A stretch of 49,543 nucleotides of DNA from Chthonomonadales bacterium (GCA_020849275.1 JADLGO010000060.1:1-49543), one strand, 5' to 3'; positions 10,951 to 46,964 are shown, counted from the first letter of the stretch. Program-made: numbers and translations. Notes: generated from the letters alone by a model not told the origin.

Positions 10951-11405
10951 AGTGTGTTATGGACTCATGCCCGTCAGGTAGGGCCGCAACTGGACGAGCA
11001 TGAGGACGCCGAAGACGACGAAGTGTATCTGCACCAGCGTCTCCTCCAAGCGTTCGTAGTCACGCGCGAGGCCGCGGAACCGGCTGGCCCAAGCGAAGCT
11101 GCGCTCGACAACCCAGCGCCTGGGCAGCAGCACGAAGCCCTTCTTGGCCTCTTGCAGCTTGACAACCAACAGGTCGATGCCGTGCTCCCTGGCTTCTCGG
11201 GCAGGCTCCTCGCCCGTGTAGCCCTGGTCCACGTAGGCGACCTGGACGCTCTGACCGGTAGCAGCTTGCACCTGCTGGGCAACCTCGCCTACCTGAGCGC
11301 GTTCCTGCGCGTTGGCGGGCGTGACGTGGCAGGCCAATAGGTGACCGAGTGTGTCGACGGCCATGTGTACCTTGCTGCCCCGCTTGCGCTTGTGGCGTGG
11401 CGTCT
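10951..11405 (-). mobile_element. truncated IS5-type insertion sequence (one end only)
   Basis: One IS end appears to lie at 10951 (AGTGTGTTATGGAC, preceded by CTAG, compatible with a TNA-type target). The other end is missing: transposase homology stops abruptly near 11405, and a different plus-strand coding frame begins. Confidence 0.6.
10957..11405 (-). pseudogene. IS5-family transposase, C-terminal remnant
   Basis: About 149 C-terminal residues remain. The order KRKRGSKVHMAVDTLGH, then VAYVDQGYTG, then RRWVVERSFAW followed by RDYER and LVQIHFVV is the DDE core of IS5-type transposases, with the second Asp and the Glu visible. The N-terminal half, including the DNA-binding region and first catalytic Asp, is absent, and no start codon fits the remaining part. 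It should be inactive. Confidence 0.8.
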
Positions 11406-37808: not shown

Positions 37809-39479
37809 ATGCTATCCGTCCGCGACAACCGGATCCACGCCGAGACGAAGACACTGTCCGCCACCATCGACAACGGCTTCCTCACCTCGCTCGTGAGCCA
37901 CCTCGACGGCGAGGAGTACCTGCGCTGCCCCAGTCCAACCGGGTCGGCGTTGCAGGTCGTCTACACCGGCCGGGACGCCGTCGGAGTGGCGAGCAGCCTG
38001 GCGGCGGAGGTCAGCGCGCACGCCCTTTCCCCCACTCGCGCCCAGCTCCGCTTCAGCGGCTGGGACGCGGACGGGGTGCTCACCGTCTCCGAGGACCCCG
38101 AGAGCGGCGAGCTGATCGTCGAGCCCTCCGCCTATTCTTCTCGCCCGGGCGTGCTGGCCTGTCGCTGGCGCGTGCCCGGCATCCGCGAGGATCTGGAGCT
38201 GGTCGCTCCCTTCTTCCAGGGCGTGCGCCTGCGCCTCGCCGACCCACTGCTGGAGCGCCGCTGGTTCTGGCCGCAGTTCTGGGAGGCCGGCCTGGCCATC
38301 CTGCAGGGGCGCGCAGGCGGCTTCTGGGTCCACTGCCGCGACGACCGCTACCGCTACAAGGCGCTCGACATCGCGGGAGGCACGGTGGGCTTCGACACGG
38401 ACGCCTACGGCCCGCTGGACGAGAGCCGCGGCGCCGGCGGCCTGGCCTGGCGCATCAACACACACCGCGGCGACTGGCAGGAGCCGGCGGCGATCTATCG
38501 CGACTGGCTCTGGCGCGCCTACGATCTCGAGGCCGCCGAGGCTCTCCGCAAACCGTGGACCCGCGAGGCGCGCTTTGCCCTATCGTGGTTCAACGGCGAC
38601 CCGGAGATCCTGGACGCCGTGGCCGAGCGCGTCGACCCCGCTCGGGTGCTGATCCACTACTCCGACTGGCGCACAGACGCCTACGACGAGAACTACCCCA
38701 CCTACCTGCCTTCGGAGCACGCTCGGGGCCTCTTCGCGAAGGCCCGCGCGATGGGCTTCCACGTGATGCCCCACTGCAACGCCGTCGACATGGACCCGAG
38801 CCACCCGGCCTACGCATACCTTCGCGACTTCCAGTATCGCGACGTGCAGACCCGCGCTCTTCTCGGCTGGGGCTACGACAGCCATGCCGGCGGCGTCCTT
38901 GGAGTGCCCAACTCCTCCCACGCCCTGGGCGGCAACCGGGCGCGCAAGGTGATGGTGAAGGTCCATCCCGGTCTCTCCATGTGGCGCTCGATTCTGGCGG
39001 AGAGCGTCCTCGGGGCCGTGCGCGCCGTCGACACGGACAGCGTCTTTCTGGACGTGACGCTCTGCAGCCATAACCTGCACAACTGCCTGGTGGAGGGTTG
39101 CACATCGACGGAGGGCATGCGCCGCCTCATCGCGGAGATAGGCGGGCTCGACGGCGGGCTGGCGGTGGGCGGCGAGGGGCTCAACGAGATCACGATGCAG
39201 GGGCTCTCGTTCGCGCAAGCGCACCTCTTCGCGAGCTGGCAGGCCAACTGCGAGGGGTTGGAGCGCACCGGCGGCTGTGCGCTGAACGACTTCCTGTTCG
39301 GTCGCCTCTGCCGCACCTTCGGCTACAGCGGCCTGGGCGGGCGCACGGAGGCCGAGGCGCTCCGAATGCGTCTGCACGAGGAGCACGGCGCGCTCCCCAC
39401 CGTGGTGGTGCGAAGTGCCGCCGAGATCCGCTCTCCGAACGCGGCGGTGCGCCGGGCGCTGGAGCGTGCGGCGGGGTGA
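37809..39479 (+). CDS. glycosidase-like protein (DUF6259-like)
   Basis: 556 residues, no signal peptide. The N-terminal about 250 residues are beta-rich (RIHAETKTLSATIDNGFLTSL; VPGIREDLELVAPFFQGVRLRL). A barrel-like domain follows with ARFALSWFNGDPEILDAVAERVDPARVLIHYSDWR, then MGFHVMPHCNAVDMD, VDTDSVFLDVT and GGLAVGGEGLNE. The layout resembles DUF6259 and GH31/GH36-like proteins: beta sandwich, then barrel with Asp (FLDVT) and Glu (GGEGLNE) at strand ends. Family named from memory. Likely cytoplasmic or released otherwise; co-transcribed with the isomerase. Confidence 0.65.
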   Translation: MLSVRDNRIHAETKTLSATIDNGFLTSLVSHLDGEEYLRCPSPTGSALQVVYTGRDAVGVASSLAAEVSAHALSPTRAQLRFSGWDADGVLTVSEDPESGELIVEPSAYSSRPGVLACRWRVPGIREDLELVAPFFQGVRLRLADPLLERRWFWPQFWEAGLAILQGRAGGFWVHCRDDRYRYKALDIAGGTVGFDTDAYGPLDESRGAGGLAWRINTHRGDWQEPAAIYRDWLWRAYDLEAAEALRKPWTREARFALSWFNGDPEILDAVAERVDPARVLIHYSDWRTDAYDENYPTYLPSEHARGLFAKARAMGFHVMPHCNAVDMDPSHPAYAYLRDFQYRDVQTRALLGWGYDSHAGGVLGVPNSSHALGGNRARKVMVKVHPGLSMWRSILAESVLGAVRAVDTDSVFLDVTLCSHNLHNCLVEGCTSTEGMRRLIAEIGGLDGGLAVGGEGLNEITMQGLSFAQAHLFASWQANCEGLERTGGCALNDFLFGRLCRTFGYSGLGGRTEAEALRMRLHEEHGALPTVVVRSAAEIRSPNAAVRRALERAAG

Positions 39480-39492
39480 CCCGCCCGGCGCG

Positions 39493-39526
39493 GCGAAGCC
39501 CGCCCGGCGGGCCGGGCGGGCTTCGC
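39493..39526. terminator. bidirectional terminator hairpin
   Basis: GCGAAGCCCGCCCGGC / GCCGGGCGGGCTTCGC, 16-bp perfect stem with a two-base gap, between convergent stops at 39479 (+) and 39545 (-). Confidence 0.8.
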
Positions 39527-39544
39527 TCGAGGAGGAGCCGACGG

Positions 39545-40189
39545 CTAGGCGCGGCGGCGCAGGCGCAGGGCCAGCGGCACCAGGCCTCCCAGCAGGAATG
39601 CCCAGGTCCCGGGCTCCGGCACGGCAGTCACGGCCACGTTGTCGATGCCGAGGGACGGGTTGATCCCCGAGATGGTCAGCGCCACCGAGGAGAACGGCCC
39701 CACGTGGCCGAGGAAACCCTGGCCGTAGCCGAGGGTGCCGCCCGGCCCGAGCGGCGCGAACGGCACCAGCGCGCCACCGTCGAAGGAGGCCATCACGACC
39801 GGCGCCGTGAGGACGGTGTCGCCCTCGATAGTGATGAAGTCGAGGCCCAGGTCCGTGAAGGAAGGCGCCCCGGAGAATGTGATGGTGAGTGTCGTGTCCG
39901 TAGGCGCGGGGAAGGTCGTGTTCCCTCCGTGGAACAGGTTGCCGGAGACCGGTGGGCTGCCATAGAAGTCCGGCGTGGGCGGCACCGTGTTGGAGACGAC
40001 GCCGTAGACCTCGGCCGGATCGGTGTAGGTGAACGTCGCGGTGACTCCGTTGTCCACCAGCGCGAAGCCGGAGGGCACGTCGCCCGGAACGAGCGAGTCG
40101 AAATCGAACACCGCCGTCTGGGCATCGGCTCGCGCGCCCATGAGGACAATCAGGCCCGCCGCAGCCAGCGCGAGCTTGAGCGATTTCAT
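39545..40189 (-). CDS. PEP-CTERM surface protein
   Basis: 214 residues from the ATG at 40189 (AAAGGA upstream). A signal peptide (LALAAAGLIVLMGARADAQ) leads into a beta-rich adhesive-type domain (VFDFDSLVPGDVPSGFALVDNG, LTITFSGAPSFTDLGLDFITIEG). The C-terminus AVPEPGTWAFLLGG then a hydrophobic helix and LRLRRRA is a textbook PEP-CTERM sorting signal: Pro-Glu-Pro, membrane helix, Arg cluster. Exosortase removes this tail during surface sorting; no exosortase gene lies in the window. It lies downstream of the ligase gene after an 82-base gap containing a hairpin. Confidence 0.9.
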   Translation of the reverse strand: MKSLKLALAAAGLIVLMGARADAQTAVFDFDSLVPGDVPSGFALVDNGVTATFTYTDPAEVYGVVSNTVPPTPDFYGSPPVSGNLFHGGNTTFPAPTDTTLTITFSGAPSFTDLGLDFITIEGDTVLTAPVVMASFDGGALVPFAPLGPGGTLGYGQGFLGHVGPFSSVALTISGINPSLGIDNVAVTAVPEPGTWAFLLGGLVPLALRLRRRA

Positions 40190-40227
40190 CAGGTCGGTCC
40201 TTTCCTGGTTACGGTTCGGCCGGCCGC

Positions 40228-40255
40228 CCCCGGATGGCGCCGAGGCCATCCGGGG
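40228..40255 (-). terminator. hairpin between the ligase-like and PEP-CTERM genes
   Basis: CCCCGGATGGC / GCCATCCGGGG, an 11-bp perfect stem with a six-base loop and no T tract; may attenuate rather than end the ligase transcript. Confidence 0.5.
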
Positions 40256-40271
40256 CGCCGAAATGGCGACA

Positions 40272-41951
40272 TCAGCGCGTGAGCGTCACGCTCGACGTGT
40301 CCGTCTGACCGAGGAACTCTGCCGTGACGGCGATGCTCCCCGTGCTGCGCGGACGCGTCTGGAGGACGTTCTTATCCCCGCCGCTCAGCATGCCGCCCAG
40401 CGTGCCAGGCGTTGCCGAGTAGTTGGTGGCCGGGTCGTCGGTCACGTCCACCTCCGTCGTCGAGCCGTCCGTCCCGTAGGTGGCGATCACCGTAAAGGCC
40501 AGCGCCTGCCCCGAACGCAGTGTAGCGACGTCCGGACGGAGATCGATGCTCTGCAGGTACTGCGGGTCGACCGCCGCCCGAGTGGCGGTGGGCAGCACGA
40601 AGGCCGCCAACGCCAGGGAGGCGAGGGCCACCGCCGGGCGCGCGAAGCGCGGAGCCAGCGCCGGGCGGGTGAGCGTCTCGCGCTGGCGAGCGAAGGGCCG
40701 CAGGGCCCCCACGCCCAACCCGAGCACCAACCAGAAGAACATCGAGGTCTGGGCGAGGCCCCACGAGGGGTTGCTGACGGCGTCGACGGCGAACGCCACC
40801 GTCGCCGCGATGGCGCCCATCAGCAGGCTCCGGCGGATGCCGGCATCCATCGTGTAGGCCCGGCGAAGACCGACGAACAGAAACGCGGCCAGGGCAAGCG
40901 CCACCAGCATGGCGGCGGGGATGCCCATCTCTGCGGCGGTCTTCAGCCAGAAGTTGTGCGGGTCGTTCGAGAGCGAGGGATGCGCGGCGCTGTAGCGCAC
41001 CGGGTAGAGGCCCACGCCGATGCCGGTTAGCGGGCGAGACGCGATGGTGCTCGCCGCGTCGCGCCACATCGCCTGGCGGGACTGGAAGGTCGCCTGAGCG
41101 CTCACGTTGCTGAAGGTGGTCGCGCGCTGCAGCAGCGTGTTCGTCTGCGGCCAGAGGGCCAGGAAGACGATGACGCCCACCAGCATCACGGCCGGAAGCA
41201 CGAGCTCATGCTTGCGCGAGGCCAGGCTCGACGGACGGTTGCGCGCGGCGACCGCGATCGCCAGGATCGCCAGAACGCCGAGCCCCACCGCCGACCCGAG
41301 CCACGCGCTGCGGGTCTGGGTCAGAAGCAGACAGGCCGCCATGAGCACGGTCGCCACCTGCGCGGCGAGCTGACGCCCGGCCTTCCTCTCCGTGATCGCC
41401 ACCACGGCCACGATCGGCAGCAAGATCATCAGGAAGGACGCCAGGAGCTGCGGGTTGCCGAAGGGGCCCGCGGCGCGCAGCGTCTCGCCCGTACTGTACT
41501 GCACGAAGCCGTAAAGCGAGGCCGCCACACCAACGAAGAGCAGCGTGTCAAACAGCTTCGACAGGTGCTCCGAGCGCCGGAACTGGTAGGCCACCACGAA
41601 GTAGAGAAGGACGCCCGCAGCGATCCGGGTGGTCTCCTGGATGCTGAAGGCCTTGTTCGAGGACAGGGCGCACGAGACGAGCGCAACGCCCAGAAACAGC
41701 AGGATGGGCAGGTTGGGCCCGGTGCGCAGGAACTCCGTCACCTTCTGGCGGGTGAAGTTCCAGCGCGAGCGCCAGAGCAGAGTGGCGAACAGCAGCACGG
41801 CGAGCCCCTCGAAGGCGAGAGCGGCGATGCCGTTCTGTGCGTTGTTCGCGGGCGACGCGACCAGGGTGACGATCACGACCATCGCCAGGACAAGGGCGAT
41901 CAGTCGGTTCTGCACCGCTTGCGTCCACCACGAGTTGGACTGGTTGGACAT
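40272..41951 (-). CDS. O-antigen ligase/Wzy-like membrane protein with C-terminal Ig-like domain
   Basis: 559 residues. About 10-12 membrane helices, with PILLFLGVALVSCALSSNKAF early and the large loop RQAMWRDAASTIASRPLTGIGVGLYPVRYS then HNFWLKTAAEMGIPA, the pattern of the Wzy_C/O-antigen ligase family (TIGR-type GxG and HN motifs). These enzymes polymerise or transfer polysaccharide chains outside the inner membrane. Residues from about 463 form an unusual extra domain (QSIDLRPDVATLRSGQALAFTVIATYGTDGST), a bacterial Ig-like (Big2-type) module. Transcription probably begins at the sigma-54 site 42157-42172; the leader is about 195 bases. Confidence 0.82.
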   Translation of the reverse strand: MSNQSNSWWTQAVQNRLIALVLAMVVIVTLVASPANNAQNGIAALAFEGLAVLLFATLLWRSRWNFTRQKVTEFLRTGPNLPILLFLGVALVSCALSSNKAFSIQETTRIAAGVLLYFVVAYQFRRSEHLSKLFDTLLFVGVAASLYGFVQYSTGETLRAAGPFGNPQLLASFLMILLPIVAVVAITERKAGRQLAAQVATVLMAACLLLTQTRSAWLGSAVGLGVLAILAIAVAARNRPSSLASRKHELVLPAVMLVGVIVFLALWPQTNTLLQRATTFSNVSAQATFQSRQAMWRDAASTIASRPLTGIGVGLYPVRYSAAHPSLSNDPHNFWLKTAAEMGIPAAMLVALALAAFLFVGLRRAYTMDAGIRRSLLMGAIAATVAFAVDAVSNPSWGLAQTSMFFWLVLGLGVGALRPFARQRETLTRPALAPRFARPAVALASLALAAFVLPTATRAAVDPQYLQSIDLRPDVATLRSGQALAFTVIATYGTDGSTTEVDVTDDPATNYSATPGTLGGMLSGGDKNVLQTRPRSTGSIAVTAEFLGQTDTSSVTLTR

Positions 41952-42156
41952 GCGTTCCTCTCCTTTGCGCCCGCGTGCCGCGATGCCTCACACATTCGCG
42001 TACCGGCGGGCAGAACGTTGCCGACGGTGCCTTACACATCCGCCGGCGACACGCGACCGAGATGAACCACACGGCGCCGCCGTTGTCCTCGACGGCGCGG
42101 CCGGCCCCACGCGCGCCCACGAAGGCGCGTGCGCACGCACGACCTACCTGCTCCGG

Positions 42157-42172
42157 TGCAAAAACCGTGCCA
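42157..42172 (-). promoter_or_regulatory. sigma-54 (RpoN) promoter, perfect -24/-12
   Basis: On the minus strand 42172-42157 reads TGGCACG, four bases (GTTT), then TTGCA: every defined position of the consensus TGGCACG-N4-TTGCW. It faces the ligase-like gene at 41951. The rest of 41952-42270 holds a leader with small GC dyads, the terminator of the upstream operon and no gene. Confidence 0.78.
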
Positions 42173-42212
42173 TACCTGCCGTCGCACCGTGAATCTCGGT
42201 CCAGGCCCCCGG

Positions 42213-42252
42213 AAAAAAGCGGGGGCCGGGCCCGGTTGGCCCGCCCCCGCTT
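42213..42252 (-). terminator. rho-independent terminator of the wzc/wza-like operon
   Basis: On the minus strand: AAGCGGGGGC (42252-42243) pairs with GCCCCCGCTT (42226-42217), with a further GGGCC/GGCCC pairing in the loop, followed directly by a run of six T (42218-42213). Confidence 0.88.
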
Positions 42253-42270
42253 CGATCGCGCCGTCCGCGG

Positions 42271-43437
42271 CTAGCGGAAGAGGCGGATGCCCATGTAGCT
42301 CAGCAGGCTGAACGGCCCGATCACGTCGGTCCAGTTGAACCCGCGCTTGCCCTTCGTGGGCACATAGAGGATGTCGTTGGCCTGAAGCGTCACGTTGGCC
42401 GTCATGTCCCGCTTCTTGAACATCTCCTCGATGTTCACCGGAATCACGGTGGTCTTGCCGTTCACCATGCGGACGACGCCCGCCTTGCTCAGGTCGGCCT
42501 CCGGCGACTGGCCGCCGGCCGCGCTCAGCGCGCTCAGCACCGTCACCGGCTCGCGCTCCGGCAGCGGATAATAGCTTGGCGTACGCACCTGGCCCATCAC
42601 CCCATAGTGCTCCTCGATCTCCGGGATGAAGAGCGCATCGCCCGGTTGCAGCGCGAAGCCCAGGGTCGCCTCGTCCGTCTTGCCCTCCACCAGGATGCGC
42701 CGCAGGTCCACCGGAATGCGCGTGGTGCCCCGCAGGATGTAGGACTTGCTCAGCGCGGCCGTCTCGGTGGGGTTACCCGCCTGCGATAGCAGCGAGATGA
42801 GCGTCGTGCCGTCCTGCAACTCGACGGCGCCCGGTTTGGCCACCTGCCCGAGCACGTGCACCTGCCGGCGAGCGGCGTCCATCTCGCTGAAGATCACCAG
42901 GTCGTCTGGCTGCAGCGGCGGGTTGCTCTCGGAGCTCGGATCGGAAATCGCCCGCTGCACGTCGATCGGGATCACCTTCGTGCCGTCGCGAATCAGGCTG
43001 CCGGAGACCAGCACCGGCTTGGCCGTGAGGCCGCCCGCCACTGCCACCAGGTCCATCAGCCGCCATTTCGGCTTCAGCGCGTAAGAGTTGGGCGAGCGGA
43101 CCGCGCCCACGGCGCGCACCTTGCGCGAGTTCACCTCCTTGACCTCGATGATCACCTCAACGTTGTTGCGCGTCTTCTCCAGCGCCGCCTTCATGTCCGC
43201 CGCAAGCTGCCGCGGCGTCTTGCCCGCCACGCTCAACTCGCCGATCTCGGGGAAGGAGATCTTGCCGTCGGGCCGGACGATGACCGTCCGGTTGAGGTCC
43301 GTATGGTTGGTAACGCTGACGTCGATTACGTCGTCCGCGCCAAGCACGTAGTCGGTCACCGCCTGTGCTCGCGCGCCGGCGCACGGCAGCGCGATCAGGA
43401 CCGCCAGGGCGGCCGTCAGGCCCAGGAGCTTCTGCAT
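42271..43437 (-). CDS. polysaccharide export protein (Wza-like, SLBB domains)
   Basis: 388 residues. A signal peptide (LGLTAALAVLIALPCAGARAQA) is followed by the Poly_export domain: YVLGADDVIDVSVTNHTDLNRTVIVRPDGKISFPEIGEL. Three SLBB repeats follow, each with V-x-G-x-V-x-x-P (VRAVGAVRSPNSY, VHVLGQVAKPGAV, YGVMGQVRTPSYY) and an LLxxAGG tail. The C-terminus WTDVIGPFSLLSYMGIRLFR is the amphipathic segment that in Wza builds the outer-membrane pore. No lipobox (Pro precedes the leader Cys). Two bases after the Wzc-like stop, so co-expressed; a terminator follows. Confidence 0.9.
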   Translation of the reverse strand: MQKLLGLTAALAVLIALPCAGARAQAVTDYVLGADDVIDVSVTNHTDLNRTVIVRPDGKISFPEIGELSVAGKTPRQLAADMKAALEKTRNNVEVIIEVKEVNSRKVRAVGAVRSPNSYALKPKWRLMDLVAVAGGLTAKPVLVSGSLIRDGTKVIPIDVQRAISDPSSESNPPLQPDDLVIFSEMDAARRQVHVLGQVAKPGAVELQDGTTLISLLSQAGNPTETAALSKSYILRGTTRIPVDLRRILVEGKTDEATLGFALQPGDALFIPEIEEHYGVMGQVRTPSYYPLPEREPVTVLSALSAAGGQSPEADLSKAGVVRMVNGKTTVIPVNIEEMFKKRDMTANVTLQANDILYVPTKGKRGFNWTDVIGPFSLLSYMGIRLFR

Positions 43438-43439
43438 CG

Positions 43440-45647
43440 TCAGGCCTCCTCTTCCTCCTCGGCCCGGCCGGCCACCACCGCGGTGTCGGTCGGCGAGGAC
43501 GATCCGTTCTTGGGAAGCAGTGCGTCGCGTCCCGAGGAGGACCGGCGCCGGTGCGTCTCGCCGTTGGGAAGCTGCGAAGTCGTGTAGGCGTTGTAGTAGC
43601 TGTAGTAGCCGTAGTAGTCGTCGCGCCGCGAGCCGGTATCGATCTTGTTGAAGACGACGCCGATGAGCCGGGCGCGCGCCTGCTCCAGCATCTCGATGGC
43701 ATGGCGCACGGCGGACTTGCGGGTCTCGCCGAGCTGCACCACATAGAGCACGCCGTCCACCTCCGCCGAGAGCACCTGCGCGTCGGCCGTGGCCAGGCAG
43801 GGCGGCGTGTCGAAGACGACGACGTCGGCGTGCTCCTTGAGCTGATCGTTGAGACCGCGCATCGCCCGGGAGTTGAGCAGCTCCGCCGGGTTGGGAGGAA
43901 TGGCCCCCGAGGTGACGATTCGCAGGCCCTCGATGTTCGTCTCTTGCAGCGCGTCCTCCAGAGAGGCCTGGCCGATCAGCACGTTGGTGAGGCCGGGCTT
44001 TTGCGATAGGCCGAACTTCTGGTGCAGCGTTGGCCGCCGCAGGTCGGCGTCCACCAGGATCACGCGCTTGCCATCGAGCGCCATCGCGATCGCCAGGTTG
44101 GCGGCCGTGGTGGACTTGCCCTCGCCGGGCGCGGTGCTCGTCACCACCAGGGAGCTGGCCGGCGTGTCCACCGAGGCGAACTGCACCGCCGAGCGAAGAA
44201 CCCGGTAGCTCTCCAGCAGGGCGCCGCCGCGCGGGCCGGTCAGGATGCGGCCCTCCTCCTCGGGCACAAGGGGGATGTAGCCGATGGTGGGGGCGCCCAT
44301 GATGCGGCGCGCGTCCTCGGGCGCGTTAACGCGGTCGTCCAGGAACTCCTGCAGGAGGGCGAAGCAGATGCCGAGCAGCAGGCCGACCACGGCGGAGAGC
44401 ACCAGATTGGTGGGCTGTCGCGGCGAGACCTTCTCGGCCACCGTGGCTGGCTGGATGACCTGCAGCGGGTCGTGGGTGGCGTTGCGGCGCAGGCTCAGGT
44501 CCTCAACGCTCTTGGTGAGCAGCCCGACGGTCTCGCGGTGGCGCTCCACCTCTCGCTCGATCTGGGCCTGGTCGAGCTCCATGGCGCTGTACTGGCTCAG
44601 ATCGGTATCCGAGCGAGCCATGCGCTGGCGCGCCTCGGCCACCTGCATGGAGGCGGAGGAAACGGCGGCCCGAGCCTCGTTCACCTTGTCCTCGTAGGCG
44701 CTCAACTGCGGGTTGGGCGTGCGGGTGACGGAGGTGACCGTTCTCGGCATGCTCCGCAGTCGGCCCTCTAGCGCGGCGATCTGCGCGTCGACCTTGGCCA
44801 CCTCGGCGTGGGTGGGCTTGTAGAGGATGAGCAGCTTGGAGCGGTCGGTCTGGAGCAAGGCGATGCTGTTGCGCGTCTGCTCGATCTGCGGGTTCGTGAC
44901 GGTGGTGGGCGTCTCGAGGACCGGCTTGAGCGAGCGACGCGCCGTCACAAGCGCGTCCAGGCGCGCCTGGGCGCCCGCAAGCGCCGATTCGGCCTGCATC
45001 ACCTCCGAGTCGGCGGCGGTGGCCTGAGCGGTGCGCTTGTTGCGCTCCACCTCCAGGCTGCCGATGCGCTTGCCGCGCCGGTAGTCCTGCAGCGCCTTCT
45101 CCGCCCGGCGCAGGTTCGCGCCCTCGTCGGTCAGCCGATTCCTGGCGAACTCGAGCGCGTTATCGACCTCCTCCTTGCGGTCGCCCTTGATCGCCTTCAG
45201 ATAGGTCCGCGGAAGCTCCTTCGCCACGCGCTCGGCGCGATTGGCGGAGGTGGAGTCCGCGGCGATCTCGATGACGTCGGTGTCGTCCACCTGCCGCACC
45301 TTCACGTCGACGCTCTCGCGCGGGATGCTCAGCGTCTCGAAGGCGTTCTTCATCACCGCGTCGCTCTGGATCACCTCAAGCTGCGTCGCCACGTCGTGGC
45401 CGGCGTTATCGGTGAAGAGACCGCTCAAGGGATCGTTGGCGTTGTACTGGGCCAGCTTGAGGGACTTGCCTTCGACCAGGATACGGGTGGTGGAGCGATA
45501 GATGGGCTTGGTGAGGAACGTGACGACGGCACCGACGACGAAGACGACGACGAACGTCTGGACGATTATCGCTTTTCGGCGCCGCAGGAGGTCCAGGTAG
45601 TCGCGCAGAGTCACGTCCTGGGCCTGCGGATCGGGTCCTTCTTGCAT
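43440..45647 (-). CDS. Wzc-like chain-length/tyrosine autokinase
   Basis: 735 residues. A Wzz domain (DYLDLLRRRKAIIVQTFVVVFVVGAVV; membrane helix 28-45), a long coiled coil (about 155-385) and a second helix (414-432) precede a BY-kinase domain. Walker A is STAPGEGKST (504-513, Lys511), Walker A' is VILVDADLRRP (529-539) and Walker B is VVVFDTPP (609-616). A C-terminal tyrosine cluster at 678-688 has seven Tyr in eleven positions, the site of autophosphorylation in this family. The kinase controls polysaccharide length and export with the Wza-like partner. An acidic tail EEEEEA ends the protein. A sigma-54 site lies about 116-134 bases upstream of the start. Confidence 0.93.
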   Translation of the reverse strand: MQEGPDPQAQDVTLRDYLDLLRRRKAIIVQTFVVVFVVGAVVTFLTKPIYRSTTRILVEGKSLKLAQYNANDPLSGLFTDNAGHDVATQLEVIQSDAVMKNAFETLSIPRESVDVKVRQVDDTDVIEIAADSTSANRAERVAKELPRTYLKAIKGDRKEEVDNALEFARNRLTDEGANLRRAEKALQDYRRGKRIGSLEVERNKRTAQATAADSEVMQAESALAGAQARLDALVTARRSLKPVLETPTTVTNPQIEQTRNSIALLQTDRSKLLILYKPTHAEVAKVDAQIAALEGRLRSMPRTVTSVTRTPNPQLSAYEDKVNEARAAVSSASMQVAEARQRMARSDTDLSQYSAMELDQAQIEREVERHRETVGLLTKSVEDLSLRRNATHDPLQVIQPATVAEKVSPRQPTNLVLSAVVGLLLGICFALLQEFLDDRVNAPEDARRIMGAPTIGYIPLVPEEEGRILTGPRGGALLESYRVLRSAVQFASVDTPASSLVVTSTAPGEGKSTTAANLAIAMALDGKRVILVDADLRRPTLHQKFGLSQKPGLTNVLIGQASLEDALQETNIEGLRIVTSGAIPPNPAELLNSRAMRGLNDQLKEHADVVVFDTPPCLATADAQVLSAEVDGVLYVVQLGETRKSAVRHAIEMLEQARARLIGVVFNKIDTGSRRDDYYGYYSYYNAYTTSQLPNGETHRRRSSSGRDALLPKNGSSSPTDTAVVAGRAEEEEEA

Positions 45648-45762
45648 TGTGTAACCTCTCGTGCCTGCTCCGGGGACGAAAGGGCCTCGTGGCCGCCGCC
45701 CTGGCAGTGAACGCGAGCCGAACGGCCCACCGGCACGCTCACCGGTGGCTTATCCCGGCACT

Positions 45763-45781
45763 ATTGCATGTTCCGTGCCAA
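45763..45781 (-). promoter_or_regulatory. sigma-54 (RpoN) promoter ahead of the wzc-like gene
   Basis: On the minus strand: T-TGGCACG, four bases (GAAC), ATGCA-AT. It matches TGGCACG-N4-TTGCW at all but one position. Predicted leader to the ATG at 45647 is about 105 bases. Confidence 0.7.
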
Positions 45782-45805
45782 GAAGCGCGAGGGACCGCCG
45801 CAATA

Positions 45806-45837
45806 GCAGGGCGGGGCCGCGCGCGGCCCCGCCCTGC
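45806..45837 (-). terminator. 32-bp perfect palindrome after the oxidoreductase gene
   Basis: GCAGGGCGGGGCCGCG and its exact complement abut; they lie 34 bases beyond the stop at 45871 and immediately before the sigma-54 promoter, insulating it. Confidence 0.7.
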
Positions 45838-45870
45838 TTCCCCTCCGGCCGCACGCGGTGCCCGCGCGGC

Positions 45871-46854
45871 CTACTCCCCCGGGTAGCGCAGGCCCCACCC
45901 TGCCCGCAAGGCGTCCATCGTGCGCATCACCGCCAACGTCTCCTCCAGCGGCAGAACGGCGCTCTCCGTGCGCCCCTCGCGCAGGCAGCGCATCGCCTCC
46001 TCCGCCTCGTAGTTGAACCCGTTGCCCGCGAATGGCTCCTCGATCCGCCGCTCCTCGTCGCCCGACCAGAGCGTCATCGCCGAGGGCCGCCACCAGGGCG
46101 ACTCGACCCGAACGCGCCCCTCCGTGCCGGTGAGGGAGGCGTCCTGCGCCGTATTGGCGCGCACGGCGGAGGCCAGCAGCGCCAGCCGGTCCCCCGGGTA
46201 GCCGAGCGCGATGGCGGCAACCTCGTCGACGCCGGTGACGCCCATGCAGGCCAGGCCCGTCACCCGATCCGGCCTGCCGAAGAGCATCGAGGCCAGCGAG
46301 ACGGGGTAGACACCCACGTCCAGCAGCGAGCCGCCGCCCAGTGCCGGGTCGAACAGCCGCCCGCGCGGGTCAAATCCGCCCCGGAAGCCGAAGTCGGCCT
46401 GCAGCAGCACCCCCTCGCCGATGGCGCCGCCGGCGAAGACCTCGCGCAACCGCCCCATGAGCGGGAAGAAGCGCGTCCACATCCCCTCCATGGCGAAGAG
46501 GCCACGTTCCCGGGCCGTTCGGATCACCGTGTCGGCCTGCGCCGCGTTGATGGTGAAAGGCTTCTCGCACACAACCGGCTTTCCTCGCTCCAGGCACAGG
46601 AGCATGTTCTCGTAGTGGAAAGGATGCGGCGTGGCGATGTAGACGATGTCCACCTCGGGGTCATCGGCCAGGGCCTCGTAGCCCACGTGGCGGCGAGGCA
46701 CGCCGAACTGCTCGCCAAAGGCGTCGGCGCGCTCCCGCGTGCGAGAGGCCACCGCCTCCAGGCGGGCGCCGGACGCCGAGCGCAACCCGGTCGCGAACGC
46801 GCGGGCGATACTGCCGGGGCCAAGCACGCCCCAGCGGACGATCTCAGCGGACAA
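45871..46854 (-). CDS. Gfo/Idh/MocA-family oxidoreductase
   Basis: 327 residues from a TTG at 46854: AAAGGAG lies nine bases upstream and the Rossmann strand starts at once, so the longer open frame upstream is unlikely to be translated. IVRWGVLGPGSIARAFATGL binds NAD(P); VVCEKPFTINAAQ is the EKP motif; GMWTRFFPLMGRLREV, GGGSLLDVGVYPVSLASMLFG then resemble the dihydrodiol dehydrogenase/glucose-fructose oxidoreductase subgroup. Cytoplasmic sugar-type dehydrogenase; substrate unknown. Confidence 0.9.
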   Translation of the reverse strand: MSAEIVRWGVLGPGSIARAFATGLRSASGARLEAVASRTRERADAFGEQFGVPRRHVGYEALADDPEVDIVYIATPHPFHYENMLLCLERGKPVVCEKPFTINAAQADTVIRTARERGLFAMEGMWTRFFPLMGRLREVFAGGAIGEGVLLQADFGFRGGFDPRGRLFDPALGGGSLLDVGVYPVSLASMLFGRPDRVTGLACMGVTGVDEVAAIALGYPGDRLALLASAVRANTAQDASLTGTEGRVRVESPWWRPSAMTLWSGDEERRIEEPFAGNGFNYEAEEAMRCLREGRTESAVLPLEETLAVMRTMDALRAGWGLRYPGE

Positions 46855-46964
46855 GAGCGTGCTCTCCTTTCGTGCCGGCGTCGAGGCGGGCCCAATGACG
46901 TCGACAGCGCAACCGGTCACGGATGGTGCTCTGGCAAGCCCCGTTGGCAAGCGGCCCGCCGTGC

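Follow-up and report, generated by a model that had tools for sequence, protein, structure and literature searches.

Two predicted sigma-54 promoters before exopolysaccharide ligation and export genes of a Chthonomonadales bacterium probably belong to a genome-wide surface-matrix regulon with an activator devoid of a DNA-binding domain

The window analysed here, a stretch of 49,543 nucleotides from a Chthonomonadales bacterium, represents the entire contig C60 of a draft genome of 4.80 Mb (73 contigs, 99.9% complete; G+C content of about 70% across those stretches that were read). On its minus strand, a wzc-like gene and, 2 bp further on, a wza-like gene precede a gene encoding an O-antigen-ligase-like protein, and a PEP-CTERM gene comes last (Table 1). 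The Wzc-like protein carries a C-terminal tyrosine cluster. Two intergenic sites of the sigma-54 -24/-12 type were recognised on the same strand; site 1 (42157-42172, TGGCACGGTTTTTGCA) shows no mismatch to TGGCACG-N4-TTGCW, and site 2 (45765-45780, TGGCACGGAACATGCA) shows one. Both display GG at -24 and GC at -12 at a fixed spacing, within TGGCAYG-N4/5-TGCA. The sequence and the scores given below confirmed the two positions and the orientations proposed by a first-pass annotation, site 1 facing the ligase-like gene (205 bp away) and site 2 the wzc-wza pair (117 bp away). By eye, the short frames at 1-156 and 10957-11271 of the window resemble transposase remnants, one of them lying at the contig end.

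Table 1. Features surrounding the two predicted promoters (positions in the window)
Feature	Position	Strand	Remarks
Sigma-54 -24/-12 promoter 1 (predicted), TATGGCACGGTTTTTGCACC	42155..42174	-	Faces ligase-like gene; 26.3 bits, leave-out matrix
Sigma-54 -24/-12 promoter 2 (predicted), CTTGGCACGGAACATGCAAT	45763..45782	-	Faces wzc-wza; 26.6 bits, leave-out matrix
O-antigen ligase / Wzy_C-domain protein, 559 aa	40272..41951	-	PF04932, E 1.7e-20; start 41951, 205 bp after promoter 1
PEP-CTERM protein, 214 aa	39545..40189	-	82 bp behind ligase gene; lacks its own site; may be second in the unit
Wzc-like chain-length determinant + BY-kinase (Wzz + BY-kinase), 735 aa	43440..45647	-	TIGR01007, 203 bits, over cut-off; start 45647, 117 bp after promoter 2
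Wza-like polysaccharide export protein (Poly_export + SLBB), 388 aa	42271..43437	-	TIGR03027, 174 bits (cut-off 180)
16-bp GC hairpin, then U6, after wza	42213..42253	-	Intrinsic terminator between the units; MFE -41.9 kcal/mol, z -2.6
15-bp perfect hairpin, between upstream Gfo/Idh gene and promoter 2	45805..45838	-	No U tract; MFE -44.1, z -3.5
11-bp hairpin, between ligase and PEP-CTERM genes	40228..40255	-	U tract absent; no classical terminator; z -1.75

For scoring, a 20-column matrix was trained on the remaining sites of the genome, both window sites being left out. Scanning the window with this matrix returned exactly two sites (26.6 and 26.3 bits), the runner-up reaching 11.6 bits, while shuffled windows (n = 20) gave 0.1 sites of at least 20 bits each, with a top score of 22.8. 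The position at which site 2 departs from the initial pattern varies freely throughout the genome (T, 13; G, 13; A, 13; C, 4; 43 sites), so that both sites are full matches to the genome's own consensus, TGGCAYG-N5-TGCA. As the reversed pattern was matched four times in 4.8 Mb, about 0.04 chance sites are expected per 49.5-kb window. In view of these scores and this expectation, the earlier statement that the window holds no third site was right.

Because the hairpin and U6 tract after wza precede site 1, the wzc-wza and ligase units are probably separate transcripts, with one promoter each. Since no U tract accompanies the hairpin that separates the ligase gene from the PEP-CTERM gene, read-through from the ligase promoter across the 82-bp gap into the latter is plausible. 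All these hairpins, including that at 42213..42253, were found by folding and were not listed by a consensus terminator scan. A scan of 39000-46900 for sigma-70-like promoters, weak at such base composition, returned none.

We then considered the genome as a whole, in which TGGCAYG-N5-TGCA occurs 49 times, against 4 for the reversed control pattern. Nearly all of these sites (45/49) are intergenic, in stretches that are about 86% coding, and for 40 of the 49 a properly oriented start follows within 300 bp; two spacer positions are A or T in 41 of 43 sites, against the high G+C content. To assign target genes, the 80 sites from a looser search were fetched with their flanks, and genes were called with a home-made codon-usage script. 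More than half of the promoter-placed sites (25/43) sit before PEP-CTERM genes (23 different genes), as the first-pass annotation had predicted, and most of the others precede exopolysaccharide (EPS) or envelope genes. These other targets include (i) bacterial sugar transferases, glycosyltransferases, a UDP-GlcNAc 2-epimerase and a sugar-nucleotide dehydrogenase-like gene, (ii) a REC-PilZ regulator gene, and (iii) a MinD/FlhG-like ATPase gene divergent from rpoN, the site lying between the two (L053:9500-9835; genome C2:39070). Genes for the omega subunit, a cold-shock-like protein and a class II aldolase, off the matrix theme, also stand behind sites, which may be chance matches. The consensus is short, and some single-mismatch matches inside genes are indeed due to chance; that the set as a whole arose in this way is nevertheless exceedingly improbable, given the count of 49 against 4, the intergenic placement and the PEP-CTERM association. 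The proposal that EPS export and polymerisation form an RpoN regulon thus looks sound in kind but was drawn too small, with about 45 sites genome-wide.

The genome contains a PEP-CTERM/exosortase system, with an exosortase and proteins bearing a signal, a PEP motif, a transmembrane segment and a basic tail. Pfam by itself yielded 11 PEP-CTERM genes, each of which carries a site (11/11). A genome-specific tail model recovered 32 PEP-CTERM tails. A site accompanies 28 of them; another three belong to co-directional runs, where they come downstream of a glycosyltransferase gene (two, at C54) or of the ligase gene (one, in the window); the last is unexplained. Only the Pfam set is independent, since the tail model was trained on site-bearing genes. 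The unexplained gene (genome C13:86487; L208) is the sole PEP-CTERM gene for which no sigma-54 site at all can be recognised; at C50, a PEP-CTERM gene has a variant site (15.8 bits). An exosortase gene lies in a co-directional run behind a site, together with sugar transferase, second Wzc, glycosyltransferase and ABC exporter genes (L350:608-10149).

Sigma-54 requires an AAA+ activator to open its promoters. As the first-pass annotation pointed out, the promoter reading hangs on the presence of rpoN; a single rpoN gene was found in the genome, so the reading does not fail on this ground. A PF00158 search of the genome returned one strong protein (244 bits), all other matches scoring 31.5 bits or less; these were taken as generic AAA proteins on their score and mostly large open frames, rather than by reading each one. 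The strong protein (L032:1231-2445) consists of Response_reg, Sigma54_activat and AAA_lid_14 domains, the lid reaching residue 398 of 404; nothing follows the lid, and no HTH was found at E values up to 1. It therefore has the layout of a sigma-54 activator without a DNA-binding domain (DBD), namely a receiver joined to a sigma-54 AAA+ domain. Its sigma-54-contacting loop reads NAFTGA instead of GAFTGA, and the N in place of the first G could weaken the contact with sigma-54. The adjoining kinase (GAF-GAF-PAS-HisKA-HATPase; AtoS-like best match) has no clear membrane segment, its only hydrophobic stretch lying inside a GAF domain. Directly behind the activator gene stands the REC-PilZ gene (L044:2953-3960; genome C52), with its own perfect sigma-54 site, a possible c-di-GMP link to the regulon.

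This arrangement bears on the activator that had been supposed earlier, the canonical PrsK/PrsR pair, in which the promoters are switched on by a response regulator of the Fis type that sits on an enhancer about 60 bp upstream. Proteobacteria show the same output, sigma-54 sites preceding PEP-CTERM and EPS genes (PMC1569441; PMC9850573). However, the activator scores 380.6 bits against the PrsR model TIGR02915 (cut-off 502.6) and has no HTH, and no PrsK match occurs among the kinase's best 25 NCBIfam hits. Upstream of the 43 promoters, no shared dyad motif was detected (best 4.9; null 3.5-5.8), a k-mer search was likewise negative, and TTTACA, the core of Haft motif 1, is present in 0/43 regions. 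In an implant control, motifs placed in half of the promoters scored 5.6-14.6; at this frequency and with 80% conservation, most trials still revealed them. With both searches negative and their power shown by the implants, a hidden enhancer was rejected. For this genome, PrsK/PrsR wiring is largely refuted, and we regard it as very improbable.

It might also be supposed that an activator without a DBD is guided by a partner DNA-binding protein or by promoter architecture, or that a second activator lies in assembly gaps, subsets of the promoters then being controlled separately. The draft, with its 73 contigs, leaves some room for this, and the REC-PilZ gene could encode a partner as well as a c-di-GMP input; yet the genome is 99.9% complete, the promoters share no upstream motif to which a partner could bind, and no activator with a DBD occurs among the best PF00158 matches of the family and order relatives read. 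Either arrangement is, in our judgement, unlikely.

The comparison was extended to 31 genomes of the order. It revealed that (i) 16 genomes hold both rpoN and a strong activator, a single genome (64% complete) being discordant (Fisher, P = 6e-8), (ii) genomes with rpoN hold 8-49 consensus sites, against mostly 1-7 in those without (Mann-Whitney, P = 5e-5), and (iii) wzc homologues have a site at 8 of 17 loci of rpoN-positive relatives and at 0 of 9 loci of rpoN-negative ones (P = 0.016), all of these P values being optimistic, since the relatives are phylogenetically non-independent. A wzc homologue with a site is present in 8 of the 15 rpoN-positive relatives. Exceptions in site number among the rpoN-negative genomes are G022 (28 sites) and the incomplete G030 (15 sites). 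In G022 (95% complete), neither rpoN nor the activator was found, probably because of an assembly gap. In G001 (78% complete), rpoN was not found, three sites accompany 21 PEP-CTERM genes, and no sites were seen at the PEP-CTERM genes read. The patterns of G001 and G022 reflect either assembly gaps or recent rewiring or loss. In G002, G005 and G008, most PEP-CTERM genes carry a site. Since several rpoN-negative relatives retain exosortase, and G001 is rich in PEP-CTERM genes but poor in sites, the PEP-CTERM system can run without sigma-54. Overall, sites, rpoN and activator have largely been lost together among the relatives. Loss of the sites along with rpoN in most relatives, and their conservation at wzc, also speak against chance matches; taken with the control patterns and the shuffles, they led us to reject a chance origin.

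A tree restricted to the AAA+ core groups the activators without a DBD in a single clade of 20 (support 0.86). A Chthonomonas homologue is nested within this clade and puts the lineage in or near Armatimonadota; the relatives sharing the activator are probably Armatimonadota. Most members of this clade have NAFTGA, which is absent from the DBD-bearing activators examined.

On this evidence, drawn from sequence, we consider it likely (probability of roughly 0.8) that both sites are RpoN promoters, of the EPS polymerisation/ligation unit and of the wzc-wza export unit, within a surface-matrix regulon of about 45 promoters that is presumably opened by the one AAA+ response regulator lacking a DBD. 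The regulon would comprise PEP-CTERM proteins, EPS glycosyltransferases, phosphoglycosyl transferases, Wzc/Wza and probably the exosortase operon. The cytosolic GAF-GAF-PAS histidine kinase would phosphorylate the receiver domain of the adjoining activator, whose AAA+ domain would form a ring and reach sigma-54 RNA polymerase from solution, with no bound enhancer, and the kinase signal might in this way switch the whole regulon on together. Activation from solution has been proposed for CtcC and FlgR, which lack a DBD, and it is the simplest mechanism here, because one such activator must serve all promoters. More tentatively, and with less than even confidence, sigma-54 in this branch of Armatimonadota may have become a nearly dedicated switch of the PEP-CTERM/EPS matrix, worked by one freely diffusing activator; NAFTGA would then have co-evolved with the loss of the tether, and whole lineages would have lost rpoN, activator and sites but kept sorting.

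Among the nearest known systems are those of Proteobacteria. Haft 2006 described a sigma-54 motif (motif 2) and a PrsR motif (motif 1) before PEP-CTERM genes in Proteobacteria only, and stated that outside this phylum other regulators were still to be found (PMC1569441); for one such PEP-CTERM gene, pepA, Xia 2023 reported rpoN-dependence and a mapped start (PMC9850573). The PrsK/PrsR/PrsT systems resemble the present one in that -24/-12 sites for sigma-54 stand ahead of EPS genes and of PEP-CTERM units that mostly consist of a single gene, and in that the response regulator is of the NtrC family and has a kinase beside it. They differ in that here the phylum is another, no PrsR or PrsK equivalogs were found, the activator has no DBD, enhancer motif 1 (there about 63 nt upstream) is missing, and the kinase is apparently cytosolic, whereas PrsK is transmembrane. 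What appears to be new is the same promoter logic in a different phylum with a different activator and kinase and no enhancer motif. Our literature search, outside which most subscription journals lie, found no paper on Armatimonadota dealing with PEP-CTERM regulation or sigma-54 promoters. The present activator would be a regulator of the kind that Haft 2006 left to find, in another phylum, different and apparently enhancer-less. It offers a compact natural system for how an activator without a DBD serves dozens of promoters; natural losses have occurred in sister lineages, and the loop that contacts sigma-54 shows a change specific to the clade.

The domain layout itself is that of CtcC of Chlamydia and FlgR of Helicobacter, type Ic of Francke 2011 (PMC3162934; PMC7482065). 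Common to all are a REC and AAA+ protein ending without an HTH, one activator per sigma-54 regulon and an AtoC-like best match. In contrast to these, in which type III secretion/membrane or flagellar genes are controlled, the regulon described here is one of the surface matrix, and the activator belongs to a separate clade, with NAFTGA for GAFTGA and a multi-GAF kinase. The theme of EPS and envelope genes is shared with the view of sigma-54 as a controller of the bacterial exterior (Francke 2011; PMC3162934); the term PEP-CTERM is absent from that text, whereas here sorted matrix proteins dominate the regulon.
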